Below the pieces are notes generated by a model. The model searched no databases. It was given only the letters and a program-made list of their open reading frames with translations, and was not told the origin of the DNA. The translations under genes were made by a program, and so were the position numbers. From Rhodospirillaceae bacterium (GTDB lineage: Bacteria; Pseudomonadota; Alphaproteobacteria; UBA8366), in contig PARQ01000008.1 of assembly GCA_002711555.1 (NCBI GenBank), positions 1 through 12,139 of the forward strand: 12,139 bases of DNA, given 5' to 3'. Below, piece by piece: positions 933 through 11,303 of the stretch. How positions within the stretch are numbered: the stretch's first letter is position 1; each line of letters opens with the position of its first letter.

Positions 933-2324
933 CTAAAATGAATACTCTGCGCCAAGTCTAATAAGCTCATTATCAGTCCATCGCCCGAAATGGGTGTCTG
1001 AATTACCCTCAAAAAATGCTCCACTCATTTGTATTTTAAGGTTGTCACTTGGACGATATTCAACGCCGGCACCAAAAGTATGATCCTCATACTTGATATT
1101 TACGGTACTACCTGCGAAGTAGCTAAGTTCTTCATTGTGCTCAACCACTACTCGCAGAAAAACTGTGCGACGGAATGGTCGAGACAGCTTCGAGCTTTGA
1201 ACCCAATCATCTGCATAAGCGTCGCTAATTATTTCATCCCCGGAGAATTCTGCTATCGAAGTTATCTTCTCCAAACCAAGAAAGTTAGCGAACCTACTAT
1301 CGGTATAACTAAGGCCTGCTCCGTACCGAATAAAGTCCTCGTCTCGGCCGTTATAAGTTCTCTGATAAACTACCTCACCGGTGAATTTCCATTCATCTAT
1401 CACACGAGACAATCCAGCTCCGGTGCTGAGAGAAATGGGATTCACTCTTTCCAAAACAAGTGAATTAAAATCAGCTACATTTCGCGTGGTAGAACTCAGT
1501 GCCGAATAACTTGATGGACCGTGATGAGCAAACCCAAAAAAATCAATACCCTCTCGTGCACCCTCATATAACGCCAAATAACCCATATTTTCAAAATGGG
1601 TTGGATGGTAAAAATCAACCACCGATGACCCAGCTGGTAGATTTAAAAAAACAGAGCTACCAGAAGTACCAGCCCACCTAGAACCCAAGCCGGGGCTTAT
1701 TGATTTTTTGTCAAATGGGAGAAACTTGAATGAGATGGTGTCGTCATCAATGAAATAATTTAAACCCAGATGCCAGACACCTAACTCCGTTGTAGATGAC
1801 GGATCGCTTCCATCCCACAAACCAAATCGATCAGAGGGAGAATGAAGCTCAAGCAATCCCATCGATAGTACATCTTTGCCAAGGATTAACTCATAATCTT
1901 CAGCCTCATATTTGAGCCAAGCTGCAGTTAGGTCGGCATGACGAATTTTCCGGTAATGCTGCCCAGGGCCGTTAAACCAACCCTGCACCGTATCCGGATC
2001 CGTAGATAGAGAAAAATATCCCTTCATGCCGATTGAAAACTCTTCGTTTAGACTTGCCTCCGTTTCCCCTTCAAGTCTTGGGCTAAAGACAACGTAGTCA
2101 TCGCGGATTGAGCTATCGTCCAGTTTGGTAACAAAGCCAGAAAACGAAGCACTAGCGGTGCGTTGGAAATTGGTTGCAAGATCAACGAGCACCTTATTAA
2201 CTGGTGCGATCATAGCTTTCTTAATTTTCGCGTCGACTTCTGGGCCAGCTTCGGCCGAGCCAATAGCTGTCTGAAGGCCCATGCACAGAAAGGTTGCAAA
2301 AACAGCTTTAACGTTCTTATGCAT
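933..2324 (-). CDS. Porin-like outer-membrane beta-barrel protein of the RND/LolA-like operon
   Basis: The 463-residue product has a signal peptide (basic MHKNVK, hydrophobic core, predicted cleavage after GSAEA near residue 26). It ends in RLGAEYSF, the C-terminal aromatic signature read by the Bam machinery. The interior alternates short amphipathic strands with charged turns, as expected for a barrel. The segment LGKDVLSMGLLELHSPSDRF (148-167), followed by a Gly-Val-Trp strand near 182-184, resembles porin-like proteins in which a conserved barrel strand and loop precede a Pro-Asp-Arg-Phe turn. I see no match strong enough for a named family. The gene starts 5 bases after the RND stop with only a weak GAG, so it is probably translationally coupled. 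Its position suggests it is the outer-membrane exit or receiving site for cargo moved by the RND and LolA-like proteins. Confidence 0.8.
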   Translation of the reverse strand: MHKNVKAVFATFLCMGLQTAIGSAEAGPEVDAKIKKAMIAPVNKVLVDLATNFQRTASASFSGFVTKLDDSSIRDDYVVFSPRLEGETEASLNEEFSIGMKGYFSLSTDPDTVQGWFNGPGQHYRKIRHADLTAAWLKYEAEDYELILGKDVLSMGLLELHSPSDRFGLWDGSDPSSTTELGVWHLGLNYFIDDDTISFKFLPFDKKSISPGLGSRWAGTSGSSVFLNLPAGSSVVDFYHPTHFENMGYLALYEGAREGIDFFGFAHHGPSSYSALSSTTRNVADFNSLVLERVNPISLSTGAGLSRVIDEWKFTGEVVYQRTYNGRDEDFIRYGAGLSYTDSRFANFLGLEKITSIAEFSGDEIISDAYADDWVQSSKLSRPFRRTVFLRVVVEHNEELSYFAGSTVNIKYEDHTFGAGVEYRPSDNLKIQMSGAFFEGNSDTHFGRWTDNELIRLGAEYSF

Positions 2325-2329
2325 GAAAG

Positions 2330-5164
2330 TTAATCTCGAGTGCTCAGCTGCTCGCCCATATTTGCAAGCCTACCCGCCAATATGGCGCTAATATTACGAT
2401 TCAAAAGAGCATGGATGCGAGGGTAGGAACGCATAGCTGATGCAACGCGCTCTTGCTCCAGCATAAGCACCTTCAGAGGTTCTTTCGAGTTCTCCGGAAC
2501 ACGCACAGTAGCTGTTCTGGCGACATTCCCAGCATAAGCAGCTTCACCAAATATTTCTGAGGTCCCCAGCGTAGCCAATAAAGTTTCTTTACCATCTTTT
2601 GCACCGAGCACCACCTCTGCTTTACCCGACAGAATTACGTACATATTACGATCCGTGGAGCCCTGGAGAAATACATCCTCACCAGGTTCAAACTCTTTTG
2701 CATAAGACAGTAATATTGTTTTACGCATTTGATAAGCAGTCATGCCTTTGAACACCTCGCTATCCGCCAAAACTTTTTGATTAAGTTTTAGCGATGCAAT
2801 GTCCCATAAACTGACAAGTCTAAATCGTTTCAGCAGAATAGGCGTTATTAACAAATCTGTAATCAATGCCATTACCATCGTTACAGCACATAAGAGCCCA
2901 AATTGAATGATGATTGTAAAATCCGATAAAAGCAACGAAAGAAAAGCGAAGGCCAAAGCCAACGACGTTGATACAACCGGTATTGCCTCTACGCGCACTG
3001 CTGCTCTTGCAGCGACCGTTTGATCTGGATTAACTTTCAATTGATCGTTAAAGTTTGTCAGCAAATGAATGGTATCATCAATAGCTATGCCTATTGCAAT
3101 AACTGATACCAAAGTGGTGCCAGCGTTGAGCGGCACCCCAAATAGTCCCATTATGCCAAACATGGTGATAACCGGTATAAGGTTAGGCACTAAAGAAACA
3201 AAGCCAGCAGTGAAAGAGGTATAAAGCAAACACATCAGCACAAAAATAATAGCCACCAGCAAAATAATAGACGTGCTTTGGCTCTTGATCATTGTTTCAG
3301 CGCCATTGTTGATCAAAATATTTTTACTCGTTATGTGGTAAGTGGTTTTAGGACCAAGAATTCCAGCAATTTTGCCTCTAAGATCATCTAAATATTTTTT
3401 TAGTTCGTAAGAATTTGATATATTGTGACGCACCATAAGATTTGCTCGCGTCGCGTCTGCATTAATAAAACGCTCAACGTCTGGTCTCGCAAAAAGTAAG
3501 AGATACTGTTCTGCCAATGCGCGTGTCTTCGGCATTACATAAAACGCTTTATTTCCCTGGTTCATCTCCTGATTAACGAGTTTCAAGTAATCAGCAATTG
3601 AAGTGACTTTGTCATATGCCCCTTGCTGCCTCATTACATTTTGAATTTTGTCAACTTTTTGCAGCCATTTTGGATCTTTAAAATCCTTGCCGGAGTCTGC
3701 ATTGATGGATAAGTAAAATACTTGCATCCCTGCCAAGTCATTGTGCAAGATGTCGGCGTCGATCCTTACCGAATTATCTGGTTTAAAAAATGACAAAGGG
3801 TCATTGCTCGTTTGAACTTTGGTCGCGAAGCCTGCAAAGATAGTTGCCGCCAATAAAACTACGACCACCACTCTCCGCTCATACCGTCCTCCGAGGATAT
3901 CCAGGATAGACAGCACTTTTCCGGCCAGCCCAACAACATTTTCACTGTCGCCCTGTAATTTTGACTTGCGCGGCCCAAAAAACCTCAACAATAAAGGAAG
4001 CATTAATATGGTTACGATTAAATTTGCCACCATTGCGTAGCCTGCCGTAATCCCAAAATGCTGGACCATTATCAGATCACTCGAGATATTTGCCATGAAG
4101 CCAACAGCCGTGGTGAAGGAAGTGATAAAAATTGGCAAACCCACATGAACTGCCATAAAACGGACAGCATTCACCCGATTTGGAGGGTCATCTTTGGACA
4201 AACCATCCAAATATGCTGTTAACATGTGCGTATCTTCGGTTGAGCCAATCACGATCACCAAAGCTGGTAAGATTGCTGTCAAAAGGTTTAAAGGTATTCC
4301 GGCAAAACCCATAAAACCTGCGGTCCACAGAATACTCATTCCAGCAGTAATTAATGGCAAACCGGCAGCAACTGGGGTCCTCAGTTGGCTCAGCAGTATG
4401 ACTACCAGAAGCACCGCACCAATCGGAGTAAGTAATCCGATATCGTTGAACAAACCTCTTTCAATCGCTACATTTATTCGAGGCGCCCCCATTACAAAAA
4501 CATCCTCAAATTCACCACGAATATTTTTGAGGCGACTATTGATTTCAGCTGCCGCTTTGCGATTAAAAGTTGGATCTCCCTCGATATTCTGCAATGTAAC
4601 CACAACAGTCGTCTTCATTGCGTCGTCGGAAATGTAAGTCCCGCGCATAATTGGACTATAAAGCGCATCTTCGCGGGCTTTCGCTATCTCTTGAGCCGTT
4701 TCGGGAGTGGCATCCATCAATGGGTTCATGTCTAACCCGTCCGGCCCCGCCCGAATATTCAACGCAGTGAACAAGCTTTCTTGCTTTTCAACGTATTTCA
4801 CATCCTCTAAACCAAACGCAAACTCTTCAATTAAGCTGAGTTTTTTCTTTGAAAATAATTTCTTATCTTTGAAATAAACAAGAACAATATTGTCTGAACC
4901 AAACTCTGCGACAGTCTCTTGGTACGGAGCATAGCCCGGATCATTTTTGCTGTAGAGGATATCAAAGCTGCCATCTACGGTTAGCTTCATGGCTCCAAAA
5001 AATGATATGCCAGTGATGATAGCAGCCAACAGAAAACTGACGATTGGGCGGCGAGCTCCAAAAGTCATTGCTATTTCATACCACGGCTTTTTTTTAACGT
5101 TATTCCCGCTCTCCGCTCCTCTGCTGCCGTGTTGCGCTAAGGATTTTACATTGCCTTCTGCCAT
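2330..5164 (-). CDS. RND/MMPL-family transporter with C-terminal cyclic-nucleotide-binding domain
   Basis: The 944-residue protein has the duplicated MMPL/RND layout. TM1 is at about 39-62, followed by a periplasmic domain (about 63-240) and a TM block (about 241-395). The second half has a TM at about 431-448, a periplasmic domain (about 450-630) and a TM block (about 631-780). The proton-relay region of each half is recognisable: GSTEDTHML (307-315) and GIAIDDTIHLL (692-702), both with acidic pairs. Residues about 800-930 form a cNBD, with the phosphate-binding cassette FGEAAYAGNVARTAT (872-886) keeping the conserved Glu874 and Arg883. At 944 residues it is longer than a plain MMPL protein by about the length of this domain. 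AGGA lies seven bases before the ATG. It sits between a LolA-like carrier and a barrel protein, so lipid or hydrophobic-molecule transport across the envelope is more likely than drug efflux. The ligand of the cNBD is unknown. Confidence 0.9.
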   Translation of the reverse strand: MAEGNVKSLAQHGSRGAESGNNVKKKPWYEIAMTFGARRPIVSFLLAAIITGISFFGAMKLTVDGSFDILYSKNDPGYAPYQETVAEFGSDNIVLVYFKDKKLFSKKKLSLIEEFAFGLEDVKYVEKQESLFTALNIRAGPDGLDMNPLMDATPETAQEIAKAREDALYSPIMRGTYISDDAMKTTVVVTLQNIEGDPTFNRKAAAEINSRLKNIRGEFEDVFVMGAPRINVAIERGLFNDIGLLTPIGAVLLVVILLSQLRTPVAAGLPLITAGMSILWTAGFMGFAGIPLNLLTAILPALVIVIGSTEDTHMLTAYLDGLSKDDPPNRVNAVRFMAVHVGLPIFITSFTTAVGFMANISSDLIMVQHFGITAGYAMVANLIVTILMLPLLLRFFGPRKSKLQGDSENVVGLAGKVLSILDILGGRYERRVVVVVLLAATIFAGFATKVQTSNDPLSFFKPDNSVRIDADILHNDLAGMQVFYLSINADSGKDFKDPKWLQKVDKIQNVMRQQGAYDKVTSIADYLKLVNQEMNQGNKAFYVMPKTRALAEQYLLLFARPDVERFINADATRANLMVRHNISNSYELKKYLDDLRGKIAGILGPKTTYHITSKNILINNGAETMIKSQSTSIILLVAIIFVLMCLLYTSFTAGFVSLVPNLIPVITMFGIMGLFGVPLNAGTTLVSVIAIGIAIDDTIHLLTNFNDQLKVNPDQTVAARAAVRVEAIPVVSTSLALAFAFLSLLLSDFTIIIQFGLLCAVTMVMALITDLLITPILLKRFRLVSLWDIASLKLNQKVLADSEVFKGMTAYQMRKTILLSYAKEFEPGEDVFLQGSTDRNMYVILSGKAEVVLGAKDGKETLLATLGTSEIFGEAAYAGNVARTATVRVPENSKEPLKVLMLEQERVASAMRSYPRIHALLNRNISAILAGRLANMGEQLSTRD

Positions 5165-5243
5165 GCTTTTTTCCTAAATTTAAAGAGCCAGTAAACCGTG
5201 GTCTTGAGTTGCAACTACCTTTTTGATTGGAAATTCCGCCGGA

Positions 5244-6068
5244 TTAACGCGCTAGTTTGCCGGAGGTAATGGTTTTTTTTCTGAAATTCTTTGAAGGAGC
5301 ATCAGCTTCCTTGAGGCTACGTTCGACAACTTCTGTAATTGTTTTATGCTTATTCTTGAGATGTTCCATAGTTGAAAGATTTGCACGCCATGCTTTTCCT
5401 TCAACATTCACCCACTTGTCTGTGGTTTGACGCTTGATAAGCTTGCCTCTGCGATTGAAATAATCCGTTCTTATTATATTAAAATGCTTCTGCCCCACCC
5501 AAAGAAGTCTATATTTGTACCCAGTATCTTTCTTTAGCTGTTTGTCTTTGGCCATCGCCTTTACAACGAATGCACTCTCACCATTCAGCTTTTCATCTGC
5601 TTGTCTATCGTAAGAAAATTTCTCCTTAGCCTCAGACACCAGATCCTCATAAGTATAATCTGTGCCCATGAAGTAATTTCGTTTACCCCCCTTCGCTATC
5701 CGTTTCAGTTTTTTCCCCTGCGCGGGCAAATACAGCCACTGATCATCAGCCTTGCTATCATTCTGCCAAGTCAGCATAGCCGTACCTTTTATGCCGGAAG
5801 GAGATCTGAAGATTGTAAGATACCGAGTTTGCGACTTATCTTTTTCACGAGTGAACCTCCGCACATCACGCACTTCTTTCTTCCCTGACTTGTCTACCAA
5901 GGTCATTTTTTGTATTTCAAACTCGAAGGGTTTGTCGTGACGGGCTTCAACCTCATCCATAATTTGCCGGCCGGATAGGCTTTTCGTGTCGGCCATGGTC
6001 ACCGAGGGAAGTAATGATAAGGCAAGGCTTGCGACTATCATTAATGGCGTTTGGCGTACAAAAGTCAT
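5244..6068 (-). CDS. LolA-like periplasmic protein (outer membrane lipoprotein-sorting protein family)
   Basis: From the ATG at 6068 the product has 274 residues. I chose this start because GGAG lies eight bases upstream (6077-6080) and because it gives a clean signal peptide cut after VTMA near residue 26. An in-frame ATG at 6092 would add eight residues, has no SD and is less likely. Diagnostic stretches are GTAMLTW (95-101), DDQWLYLPA (108-116) and NYFMGTDYTYEDL (131-143). They are typical of the LolA-like family annotated as outer membrane lipoprotein-sorting protein. There is no lipobox Cys, so the mature protein should be soluble in the periplasm. It is the first gene of a unit with the RND transporter 79 bases downstream. 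The family's LolA-type fold suggests it shuttles a hydrophobic cargo between the RND protein and the outer-membrane barrel. The cargo is not evident from the sequence. Confidence 0.88.
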   Translation of the reverse strand: MTFVRQTPLMIVASLALSLLPSVTMADTKSLSGRQIMDEVEARHDKPFEFEIQKMTLVDKSGKKEVRDVRRFTREKDKSQTRYLTIFRSPSGIKGTAMLTWQNDSKADDQWLYLPAQGKKLKRIAKGGKRNYFMGTDYTYEDLVSEAKEKFSYDRQADEKLNGESAFVVKAMAKDKQLKKDTGYKYRLLWVGQKHFNIIRTDYFNRRGKLIKRQTTDKWVNVEGKAWRANLSTMEHLKNKHKTITEVVERSLKEADAPSKNFRKKTITSGKLAR

Positions 6069-6137
6069 AACTACATCTCCAGAACAATGCATAATTGAAA
6101 GTTTAGACCGTTAATTCTTGAAGCGGACTAGTGTTAG

Positions 6138-6677: not shown

Positions 6678-7145
6678 ATGGATATATTTTCAGAGAAAAA
6701 AATGAATGAAATTTTGAACACCAAGTCGGTAAATCGCCGGCTTCATTGGACTACTGTCGTCAGTGAAAAGGGGCTACTCGCAGTGATTGGTGCCCTTACA
6801 ATGTTAGCTGCCGCTATTGAGGTTCATGCCCTATGGGAAAAAAAAGAGATATTACTTGGCGACTTATTTTTACTATTTATTTACGCCGAAATCGTTGGCA
6901 TGATCGGAGCTTTCTATGCAAGTAGCCGGATCCCCGTAACACTCCCAATAATTATTGCGATCACAGCTTTGTGTCGTGTGATGATAGCTCAAGGCAAAAA
7001 TATCGAAGACACCACACTTCTAGCTGCTTCAGGTGCTATACTTTTGCTTGCGGGGGCAGCTTATATTATGAGCTTAAAGGATAAATTAAGCTTAGAGAAA
7101 ATAAAGTCTCGCAAAAAAACAACTGTGGGTAAAAATTCTAAATAA
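6678..7145 (+). CDS. PsiE-family inner-membrane protein
   Basis: The product is a 155-residue integral membrane protein with four predicted helices (about 32-50, 58-80, 86-105, 112-132) and a very basic cytoplasmic tail (133-155). The core LLFIYAEIVGMI, then RIPVTLPIIIAITALCRVMI (84-103), matches the PsiE family pattern of a FxYxE helix, a short loop and an IxITAxxR helix. E. coli PsiE, of about 136 residues, is phosphate-starvation inducible and has no known biochemical activity. The start is uncertain. The ATG at 6678 has only a close AGG, whereas the ATG at 6702 (residue 9) has GAG six bases upstream and may be the real start. The gene stands alone, divergent from the LolA-like operon and convergent with the photolyase gene. 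Confidence 0.8.
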   Translation: MDIFSEKKMNEILNTKSVNRRLHWTTVVSEKGLLAVIGALTMLAAAIEVHALWEKKEILLGDLFLLFIYAEIVGMIGAFYASSRIPVTLPIIIAITALCRVMIAQGKNIEDTTLLAASGAILLLAGAAYIMSLKDKLSLEKIKSRKKTTVGKNSK

Positions 7146-7209: not shown

Positions 7210-8703
7210 CTAGCATGTATGTTTTTCTATAAATTTCTCCGCGCTTTCGAAAATTAGATTTTTTCTATCTGGCTTCATTTTTTCTAACATTTTTACTTGA
7301 AATGAAAGCCGGGGGTTTTTTTGATAAAAAGCCTTGTGTTTCATGATAAACCGCCAATAAAGTCCATCCACCACATTGCACCAATCTCCCCGTTTGTAAT
7401 TACTCATCTTAAGAATGTAGTTGGAACTGCACGTGTATGGTTTGGTTGACATCAATCCACCATCTGCGAACGTTGCCATACCAAACACGTTTGGCACCAT
7501 CACCCAATCAGAAGCATCTATGTACATTTCCATAAACCATTTATAAATAGCTACAGGGTCTATCTCACTGAGATTCATTAAATTAGCGATCACCATCAAC
7601 CTTGGAATGTGGTGGCTGTACCCATCATTGATCGCTGAGTTAATGCAATCGTCCAAGGGTACTATGCCAGTAGATCCATCATACCAACTATCAGTCAGAC
7701 TGCGTTTATGTTTCCAGAAGTTGCTCTTACCCTGTTCCTCACCCCTCATCTGATAGATGCCGCGTATGAATTCCCGCCAACCCAACACCTGCCTTATGAA
7801 ACCTTCTGCGGAATTAATGGGCACTCCGCCTTTTTTGAAAAGCCCCAATACCTTCCCAATAATGATATCTGGTGTAATTAAACCAATATTGAGGAATGGA
7901 CTTATGCAACTGTGAAATAAAAAATTTTCACCGACCCGCATAGCATCCTCATAAACTCCAAAGTTAGAGAGTTTGTTCAGCAAGAAAAATTCTAGCTGCT
8001 CCTCTACACCACAACGTTCAACAGGAAACCAAATATTTTTCAAACTACCGTGGTGATCAGCAAACCGGCTGTTTATTAGGTCCACGACCTTATCATGATA
8101 CTTGGACAGAGACGGCACACTTGGTTGAGGGATAGAGACATTTGCAGGGATTTTTTTCCTGTTTTCCTCGTCAAAAGACCATTTGTTGCCTATTGGTTCG
8201 TCATGTTGGTTGACTAGTATGTCAAATTTTTTTCTTCCCGTTTTGTAGAAACTTGCGAGCCGAAATTTTTTCTTTTCTCCCTGTGCCGCAATGAATTCGT
8301 CACGTGAAAACATAAACATAGGAGAATTGAAAAACTCAACAGTCAATCCTTTGCTTCTGACCCCCTTGAGAAGAGCTTCTTCAAAGTTCTTGTCCTCGAT
8401 ATCAAAAAAATTTAAATGATCGATGCTATTTTCTTCAGAAAATCGAAGAAGAAATTCAACGTAGTCAAGCCCATCGTTTCTGTCTTCCAAAGAAAAATAT
8501 GAGACTTTAAAACCGCTTCGCTCCAATTCATCCCGGTATTCTCTCATCGCACAGAGAAATAAATAAATCTTCTTCTTGTGATGTCTTTGGTAGGTGCAGA
8601 GACCATGGTCTTCCGCCATAAATACATGGTCACACCCATTTGCCCTTAATAAACGGGGATCAAATAATTGATTCCCAAGTATGACAAAAGTTTTACTTTT
8701 CAT
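7210..8703 (-). CDS. Cryptochrome/photolyase-related protein (PhrB/DPRP family), cluster cysteines apparently missing
   Basis: The 497-residue protein matches the deoxyribodipyrimidine photolyase-related family, close in length to Agrobacterium PhrB (about 507). The N-terminal alpha/beta antenna domain starts FVILGNQLF (6-14). The FAD-binding helical domain includes FIRQVLGWREFIRGIY (302-317), GYSHHIPRLM (361-370; the His-His pair of the (6-4)-type active site) and NVFGMATFADGG (405-416). PhrB-type proteins then carry a Cys-rich insertion holding most of the 4Fe-4S ligands. Here MSNY runs directly into KRGDWC (437-442), so the CxxC and about nine residues are absent, and Cys353 does not align with the first PhrB ligand in my recalled alignment. 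The cluster is therefore probably not bound. The likely role is light-dependent repair of (6-4) lesions or photoreception. The ATG at 8703 has only a weak GGGTG. The 3' end converges on the PsiE-family gene with 64 bases between stops. Confidence 0.87.
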   Translation of the reverse strand: MKSKTFVILGNQLFDPRLLRANGCDHVFMAEDHGLCTYQRHHKKKIYLFLCAMREYRDELERSGFKVSYFSLEDRNDGLDYVEFLLRFSEENSIDHLNFFDIEDKNFEEALLKGVRSKGLTVEFFNSPMFMFSRDEFIAAQGEKKKFRLASFYKTGRKKFDILVNQHDEPIGNKWSFDEENRKKIPANVSIPQPSVPSLSKYHDKVVDLINSRFADHHGSLKNIWFPVERCGVEEQLEFFLLNKLSNFGVYEDAMRVGENFLFHSCISPFLNIGLITPDIIIGKVLGLFKKGGVPINSAEGFIRQVLGWREFIRGIYQMRGEEQGKSNFWKHKRSLTDSWYDGSTGIVPLDDCINSAINDGYSHHIPRLMVIANLMNLSEIDPVAIYKWFMEMYIDASDWVMVPNVFGMATFADGGLMSTKPYTCSSNYILKMSNYKRGDWCNVVDGLYWRFIMKHKAFYQKNPRLSFQVKMLEKMKPDRKNLIFESAEKFIEKHTC

Positions 8704-9926: not shown

Positions 9927-11303
9927 ATGGATTTTCAATTTCTGATTTGGGCCGTTTTCCTGGGTGCTCTCTCTGCAGCATCACTTCCATTGGGCTCATT
10001 ATTGGGGTTAGTCTGGACACCGAATAATCGTATTGTGGGGATGATGACTGCCTTTGGTGGGGGGGCCTTGCTCGCTGCATTGGGGATAGAATTAGTCGCA
10101 CCAACTGCAATGGACCTCGTTGGTGCCTCGACCGCTGATGCAAAAGATGAGGCCGCACATCATCTCGTTTATCTACTATTAGGTGCAGCCGGCGGCGGTA
10201 TTGTATTCGTAGTTCTTGACGAGATAATCAATTCGAAAGGCGGATTTCTAAGAAAAACATCTTCCACCATTGAATATTTCACGAACCGTAAGGCAGCACG
10301 CCGAAAAGAAATTTTAGAGCACCTATCAGTAAGTGAGCTAATTCGGCACCTCCCCCTTGAAGCCGTCGAAGAAATGATAACAAGAGTGAGTGAGAGGTCC
10401 TTCGGGGCTGGTGAAATAATTTTTCAAGAAGGGGATGACGGTGATGAAGTTTTTTTCCTAGAGACGGGCGGCGTAACTGTTTCACGTGATTCTCAAGAGA
10501 TCGCCCTTTTAAGTAGCGGCGACGTATTGGGAGAGATAGCGCTTGTAACTGGAGCACCAAGAACCGCGACAGCAATAGCAGCGGAAACCGCAACAGCATT
10601 TTCTCTTCCCAAAAGGGAATTTGATACATGGCGATCAAGGTATAAAAAATTTGAGGAAGCGGCAACAGTGCTATCCGCAAGCCGCCTCAAGGAGCTTTTG
10701 GCCCGCGACGGATCCAATAGCAATACAGATGCATGGGTAGAGAATGTGATGAATTCATTAGTAGAAACTTCTATCCTACCCACCAAATCCCAACTCAAAG
10801 AGGTTAGCGAAGAGCATGATGGAGCACCGCTAGCTATCTGGCTCGGCATAATGCTAGACGGCATCCCGGAGAGCTTTGTAATAGGCTCTGCACTATTAGT
10901 TGCTGTCTCAACCGTGATTGCGCAAGCCGGACCTGAAGCAGTTACATTGGGATCTGTGATTCCCTACACGCTCATTGCGGGATTATTTCTGGCTAATTTC
11001 CCAGAAGCGATGAGTAGTTCTATTGGAATGAAAAAGCAGGGATGGGGAAGTACAAAGATCCTACTTATGTGGTTGAGCCTTACGGTTATGACAAGCATCG
11101 GTGCCGGTGCAGGGTTCTGGTTCGGCGGCATGTTAGGTCACGGTGTTCTTGTATTAGTAGAAGGTTTTGCCGCAGGCGCAATGTTGACCATGATCGCCGC
11201 TGCTATGATTCCAGAAGCCATTCACTTAGGCGGAAGAAATTCGACTGGACTAGCCACATTGGTGGGATTTTTATCAGCCGTGGCATTTAAACTTCTTGAG
11301 TAG
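9927..11303 (+). CDS. ZIP-family (GufA-like) metal transporter with an inserted cyclic-nucleotide-binding domain
   Basis: The 458-residue protein has eight predicted helices (about 6-28, 36-57, 80-100, 302-326, 344-366, 376-400, 404-430, 440-457), the ZIP number. The long cytoplasmic loop between TM3 and TM4, usually short and His-rich, is replaced by residues 101-300. These contain a full cNBD from about 132 to 255, with the phosphate-binding cassette LGEIALVTGAPRTAT (201-215) and its conserved Glu203 and Arg212. ZIP identity rests on LDGIPESFVIG (310-320) in TM4, ANFPEAMSSS (356-365) in TM5 and AAGAML...MIPEAIHLGG (415-436) near TM7. These are the positions of HNxPEG, QNxPEG and EExxPEA in GufA-type ZIPs. 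His, Gln and Glu ligands appear replaced (Asp311, Ala356, Ala at 425-426), so transport of zinc or iron is not assured. The start has a weak AAGAG nine bases upstream (9913-9917). The gene is divergent from fkbM and convergent with hemG. Confidence 0.87.
   Translation: MDFQFLIWAVFLGALSAASLPLGSLLGLVWTPNNRIVGMMTAFGGGALLAALGIELVAPTAMDLVGASTADAKDEAAHHLVYLLLGAAGGGIVFVVLDEIINSKGGFLRKTSSTIEYFTNRKAARRKEILEHLSVSELIRHLPLEAVEEMITRVSERSFGAGEIIFQEGDDGDEVFFLETGGVTVSRDSQEIALLSSGDVLGEIALVTGAPRTATAIAAETATAFSLPKREFDTWRSRYKKFEEAATVLSASRLKELLARDGSNSNTDAWVENVMNSLVETSILPTKSQLKEVSEEHDGAPLAIWLGIMLDGIPESFVIGSALLVAVSTVIAQAGPEAVTLGSVIPYTLIAGLFLANFPEAMSSSIGMKKQGWGSTKILLMWLSLTVMTSIGAGAGFWFGGMLGHGVLVLVEGFAAGAMLTMIAAAMIPEAIHLGGRNSTGLATLVGFLSAVAFKLLE

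Follow-up and report, generated by a model that had tools for sequence, protein, structure and literature searches.

In bacteria, cyclic AMP (cAMP) is known above all for its role in transcriptional signalling. In the channels SthK, MloK1 (the M. loti channel) and HCN, the cyclic-nucleotide-binding domain (cNBD) follows the last membrane helix, and in SLC9C1, the sperm Na+/H+ exchanger, it lies outside a transporter fold that differs from that of ZIP proteins, whose loop between transmembrane helices (TM) 3 and 4 is cytoplasmic. The most prevalent bacterial cAMP receptors are Crp-Fnr transcription factors (PMC10127613; cited, like PMC6052114, PMC10710835, PMC11549095 and PMC9278863, from excerpts). 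In SLC9C1, cAMP shifts the voltage range of activation (PMC6052114). MFS transporters with fused cNBDs are bacterial secondary transporters, in which fused domains are usually C-terminal according to the excerpted 2023 review (PMC10710835). BbZIP of Bordetella bronchiseptica (PDB 8ght, 5tsa and others) is the nearest known ZIP compared here; its TM3-TM4 loop (IL2) has 18 residues with a His-rich cluster, and this loop has already been proposed as an activity regulator (PMC11549095). Here we describe a protein of 458 residues encoded at 9927..11303 on the forward strand of a 12,139-nucleotide stretch from a Rhodospirillaceae bacterium (contig PARQ01000008.1; the whole stretch is called the window), in which a single, complete cNBD sits between helices 3 and 4 of a ZIP fold and the two parts are passed on together.

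With a TM3-TM4 loop of about 172 residues, the window protein departs clearly from BbZIP. It resembles SLC9C1 in being a secondary-transporter fold with a cNBD and differs in that SLC9C1 also has a voltage sensor; unlike the MFS fusions, it holds the cNBD inside the fold. Given those fusions and SLC9C1, a cNBD on a transporter is not new as an idea. For a cNBD inside a ZIP fold, no description was found in the literature searched: the best-ranked papers, without subscription papers or supplements, included none on a ZIP-cNBD protein, the MFS review (PMC10710835) does not contain the word ZIP, and neither “zip” nor “zinc” occurs in a 2007 survey of cNBD families (PMC2246266).

The open reading frame (ORF) begins with ATG, and Pfam recognizes cNMP_binding at residues 157-234 (7.7e-19, 67.9 bits, above the cut-off of 27.5); the assignment of the whole gene rests on the ORF, Pfam, an AlphaFold2 model and structure comparison. 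An orthologue with 93% identity is found at locus L001, in a metagenome-assembled genome named uncultured Rhodospirillaceae bacterium, where the neighbours, compared by ORF order, length and strand only, match those of the window. Relative to this orthologue, the whole gene shows 0.034 non-synonymous (dN) and 0.356 synonymous (dS) substitutions per site. The corresponding values are 0.037 and 0.329 for TM1-3, 0.057 and 0.421 for the loop, and 0.010 and 0.315 for TM4-8, where purifying selection is strongest. In an alignment of 57 family members (A1), to which all counts out of 57 refer, every member carries both parts and matches cNMP_binding, and the TM3-TM4 loop spans 171-173 residues in all 57. 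The Pfam E-values, the low dN relative to dS and the near-constant loop place the architecture beyond chance, and the joint presence of ZIP fold and cNBD in one protein is close to certain.

An earlier sequence-only reading, which proposed this architecture, had named an assembly fusion as one finding that would overturn it. We reject a fusion of two unrelated genes, now of negligible probability: no support for it was found, and the collinear L001 orthologue and the 57 two-part members refute it. Homologues with the ZIP-cNBD-ZIP order proved numerous. In a search with the full protein, the best 120 of 3093 matches all bear the cNMP_binding label, and 23 bear the Zip label too (by eye); with TM4-8 only, 118 of the best 120 of 2127 matches have cNMP_binding (by eye). 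The other two, P0124 and P0139, are ZIP-half matches without the label that turn out to be fragments starting inside the cNBD, and no homologue split into two genes was found among the matches listed. One match, P0091, is annotated at its source as “CRP-like cAMP-binding protein/zinc transporter ZupT”; as this name covers both parts, the combination was already visible to automatic annotation.

The AlphaFold2 model shows an eight-helix ZIP fold in a 3 + 5 arrangement around the soluble part, as had been read from the sequence. All features lie on the forward strand. Membrane helices 1-3 (residues 1-103 by the residue map, 9927..10235) correspond to model helices 3-17/19-30, 34-66 and 70-103, and are followed in the TM3-TM4 loop by the cNBD with its flanking helices (residues 111-258, 10257..10700), a low-confidence linker towards TM4 (residues 259-282, 10701..10772, pLDDT <50), and membrane helices 4-8 (residues 300-457, 10824..11297; model helices 300-334, 347-370, 375-400, 405-435 and 437-457). 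The inserted part adopts the helices and strands of a cNBD fold in the model and in structure comparison, so the domain itself stands as proposed, with its limits moved from about 125-260 to about 111-258. Common descent with ZIPs is supported by profile comparison (1.5e-14) and a collinear alignment, and the ZIP match is based on a second structure comparison, by VIA-align, and on sequence comparison. As family means, basic residues (K+R) exceed acidic ones (D+E) in loop 1-2 (1.8 to 0.1), loop 5-6 (2.8 to 0.2) and the start of loop 3-4 (6.2 to 0.5), while acidic residues prevail in loops 2-3, 4-5 and 6-7. By the positive-inside rule, the cNBD-bearing loop is predicted to be cytoplasmic, in line with the sequence-only reading.

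Relatives without the domain help to place its origin. A TM4-8 search of 398 genomes of the phylum at 1e-10 matched nine: G001, the genome behind L001, has the full fusion, six have short cNBD-less ZIP-like proteins with LDGIPE, and two have ordinary HNIPEG ZIPs. Six short proteins from the same phylum's genomes (L052, L053, L054, L055, L056 and L058; here mini-ZIPs) share the LDGIPE and LSNxPE motifs with the fusion and differ in having no cNBD. A maximum-likelihood tree was computed from 39 chosen rows, comprising 16 of the 57 fusion members, the 6 mini-ZIPs and 17 other ZIPs; it is midpoint-rooted and holds several long branches, and the program warned that, among the other ZIPs, long branches meet. 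The fusions form one group (100/100) that adjoins five mini-ZIPs as its nearest group (95/84), with L058 just outside both (96/85). In the alignment, the insert occupies the position of a short mini-ZIP loop. A single gain of the cNBD is the simplest reading. Pfam did not recognize Zip in TM4-8 pieces taken from L060, L055 and L052. A further group of small ZIP-like proteins (L040, L041, L042, L044 and L045; 236-254 aa) has no His in TM4 and shows D[FY]xPE in TM4 and QNLPEG in TM5.

The phosphate-binding cassette GEIALVTGAPRTAT (residues 202-215, 10530..10571) contains Glu203, Arg212 and Thr213 in the window protein. Glu203 and Arg212, correctly located by the sequence-only reading, are each conserved in 56/57 members, and Thr213 in 48/57. 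By sequence, cGMP-dependent protein kinases (PKG) head the PDB matches, and most of the top matches are cGMP- or cAMP-dependent kinases; three aligned domains of the former read GE.AL and, ten residues past the Glu's neighbours, R, then Ser/Thr, then Ala. In PKG, Thr after the cassette Arg is associated with cGMP preference; no preference is drawn from Thr213 here. PF00211 cyclase domains above cut-off occur in 5/5 genomes behind the loci L001-L005, compared with 5/14 control genomes, which makes cyclic nucleotides plausible in all five. Judged from the conserved cassette, the cNBD probably binds a cyclic nucleotide. Domains of this kind without a nucleotide ligand are nevertheless known as cNBD-homology domains in EAG/hERG channels and CNNM proteins, and the insert could similarly be a structural or docking module. 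This would suit P0119, the one exception without both Glu203 and Arg212, and the variant L065 (genome G612; 610 aa, 1498-3330 (-)), which has two tandem cNBDs in its TM3-TM4 loop (two stretches in Pfam), both missing the cassette Glu (by eye). These losses show that nucleotide binding is not universal in the family, but the conservation of the cassette elsewhere and the kinase-like sequence matches make a ligand-free module a rather improbable account of the family.

Our preferred reading, to which we assign a probability of roughly 0.55, is a ZIP-fold elevator that carries a divalent cation under direct cyclic-nucleotide control. In this mechanism, 3',5'-cAMP or cGMP would bind the cNBD via Glu203, Arg212 and Thr213 and would shift the helices flanking the domain, which connect to TM3 and TM4. 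In ZIPs, TM4 is part of the moving transport bundle, so ligand binding could free or lock the elevator. From the cassette, and by analogy with gating by the cNBDs of CNG/HCN channels and the modulation of SLC9C1, we infer control of transport by cAMP or cGMP. A cNBD inside a secondary-transporter fold would link a second messenger to ion transport directly and fast, and would place a ligand-driven switch at the very loop proposed as a regulator in ZIPs. With 458 residues here and a near-fixed insert length, the family is compact, and together with its cNBD-less relatives it makes the effect of gaining such a switch testable.

The metal site was compared with BbZIP via L022, which is closely related to BbZIP and whose residue numbers run one higher. 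According to the excerpts of PMC11549095 and PMC9278863, transport in BbZIP is attributed to the M1 site and not to M2, D144 and E276 have key roles, E276 matters for metal release, the effect of H275A is marginal and H177A is tolerated. No BbZIP-like binuclear centre (H177, N178, E181, Q207, D208, E211, E240) was found in the window protein, which has D311, G312, E315, A356, N357, E360 and T389 at these positions, so that only E181 and E211 are unchanged; H275 and E276 are replaced as well. The TM4 motif DGIPE (residues 311-315, 10857..10871) stands at H177-N178-x-x-E181, with Asp311 in 57/57, Gly312 in 56/57 and Glu315 in 56/57. The TM5 motif NFPE (residues 357-360, 10995..11006) stands at D208-x-x-E211, with Asn357 in 56/57 and Glu360 in 57/57. 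Asp98, at D144, is present in 56/57, and the position of Q207 holds Ser, Ala or Cys356 (40, 14 and 3 of 57). The M2 ligand E240 is represented by Thr389 (54/57), H275 by Ser, Gln, Ala or Glu425 (23, 18, 15 and 1 of 57) and E276 by Ala, Thr or Ile426 (31, 25 and 1 of 57). The family thus keeps the acids of M1 and Asp98 and has lost M2 and the exit glutamate. A single oxygen-rich substrate site of Asp311, Glu315 and Glu360 appears to be the likeliest reading, albeit held with less confidence, and with this composition a harder cation (for example Mn, Fe(II) or Mg) seems likelier than zinc.

Several observations count against a cyclic-nucleotide-controlled cation elevator. The family has Asp311 for H177, Thr389 for E240 and no acid at the key position of E276. 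The best 50 Foldseek matches to the model are all cNBD-containing structures, with no ZIP among them, and the model has a pTM of 0.65, leaving the mutual placement of the two domains uncertain. Past its charged start, loop 3-4 has more acidic than basic residues (29.1 D+E to 20.8 K+R), and the nearly chargeless loop 7-8 is too sparse to inform topology. An Rfam scan for a riboswitch as a clue to the metal gave no match in 9 sources, and in the seven other window proteins scanned, Pfam recognized no metal-linked neighbour. The cassette losses in P0119 and L065 belong on the same side. As Pfam Zip (PF02535) matches residues 348-447 of the window protein at only 0.0018 and 18 bits, below the cut-off of 35.1, and several BbZIP metal-site residues are replaced family-wide, we use the label ZIP-fold or ZIP-like and do not assume zinc; the “ZIP metal transporter” of the sequence-only reading is retained as to fold and withdrawn as a plain ZIP label. 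The replaced sites weigh less heavily because other ZIPs depart at the same positions: the four H-type ZIPs of the alignment all have Thr at E240, with two Asp, one His and one Pro at E276, and five qdz proteins, four of which exceed the Pfam Zip cut-off, all have Asp at H177. Asn at D208 occurs in 7/8 proteins of the alignment's zip group.

That the M2 ligands and a counterpart of E276, which matters for release in BbZIP, are missing across the family would also fit a transporter-derived receptor. In such a receptor the ZIP fold would have ceased to transport metal and would instead sense a metal or the state of the membrane, and the cNBD would link this sensing to cyclic-nucleotide signalling. 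Glu55 and Lys455 lie at BbZIP S106 and D305, which are extracellular-vestibule positions in the excerpt of PMC9278863, and might close the entrance; all 16 fusion members examined have both, Glu55 being found also in 5/6 mini-ZIPs and Lys455 in 0/6. We regard a receptor as unlikely, since Asp311, Glu315 and Glu360 are nearly invariant, purifying selection peaks in TM4-8, Pfam finds no output domain besides the cNBD, the H-type ZIPs show that such losses are not peculiar to this family, and cyclic-nucleotide binding is normally an input. Alternatively, the ligand might switch transport of something other than a metal, the ZIP fold having been turned to another substrate. The lack of a BbZIP-type binuclear site and the sub-threshold Zip score of the window protein speak for this option, but the acidic TM4 and TM5 motifs are kept and 22/57 members reach an E-value of 0.001 or better in Pfam Zip (lowest 1.2e-12), making it a very improbable one.

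Within the elevator reading, a more specific version is offered only tentatively. The cNBD may have replaced the regulatory TM3-TM4 loop of ZIPs in both position and function, such that a messenger, instead of metal bound by loop histidines, would control cytoplasmic release, with Asp98, His297, Glu430 and His433 as a putative new exit site. All 16 fusion proteins examined have His297 and His433, versus 0/6 mini-ZIPs, where the alignment is gappy around His297; in A1 the two residues reach 54/57 and 57/57. Counting against the exit site, His433 is Tyr in the fragment P0139 and absent from L065. Inspection of L065 by eye hinted that Asp98, His433 and Lys455 disappear together with the cassette; this coupling was dropped, as P0119 lacks the cassette and keeps all three.

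Full-length matches were obtained in 4/59 near relatives of G001 (G001 included), where 55/59 gave any match, the rest of those listed mainly via cNBDs; in 1/398 genomes of the phylum sample, namely G001 itself; and in 4/39 genomes of Candidatus Electryonea, the phylum of G005 (G005 included). In a class sample of 289 genomes the matches were G001, G004 and G612, and 60 other relatives of G612 gave none. Source names among the matches listed add Myxococcota, Latescibacteria, Nitrospirota, Planctomycetes and Handelsmanbacteria (full-protein search) and Cyclobacteriaceae (TM4-8 search). When the five genomes behind L001-L005 were searched with Pfam Zip, only G004 gave a match; this is uninformative, as the search missed the fusion proteins themselves. 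L009, an ordinary ZIP from G004, matched no chain in a PDB search.

In the ORF listing around the gene in L002-L005, L002 and L003 have a next gene in common (277 aa, similar starts). The window also encodes an MMPL/RND-type exporter of 944 aa at 2330-5164 (-) with a cNBD near its end (residues 823-912, 4.3e-14), so that a span of about 9 kb encodes two transporter-like proteins with cNBDs; at L001, the corresponding position holds an ORF of the same length, also with a cNBD. The RND gene is closely flanked on one side by the gene of a LolA-like lipoprotein-sorting protein (5244-6092 (-)) and on the other by that of a protein of 463 aa with no Pfam match (933-2324 (-)), forming an apparent three-gene operon at 933-6092 (-). 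A PsiE-family protein (6678-7145 (+), 1.4e-17) and a deoxyribodipyrimidine photolyase-related protein (7210-8703 (-), DPRP, 2.1e-58) are encoded between this group and the fusion gene.
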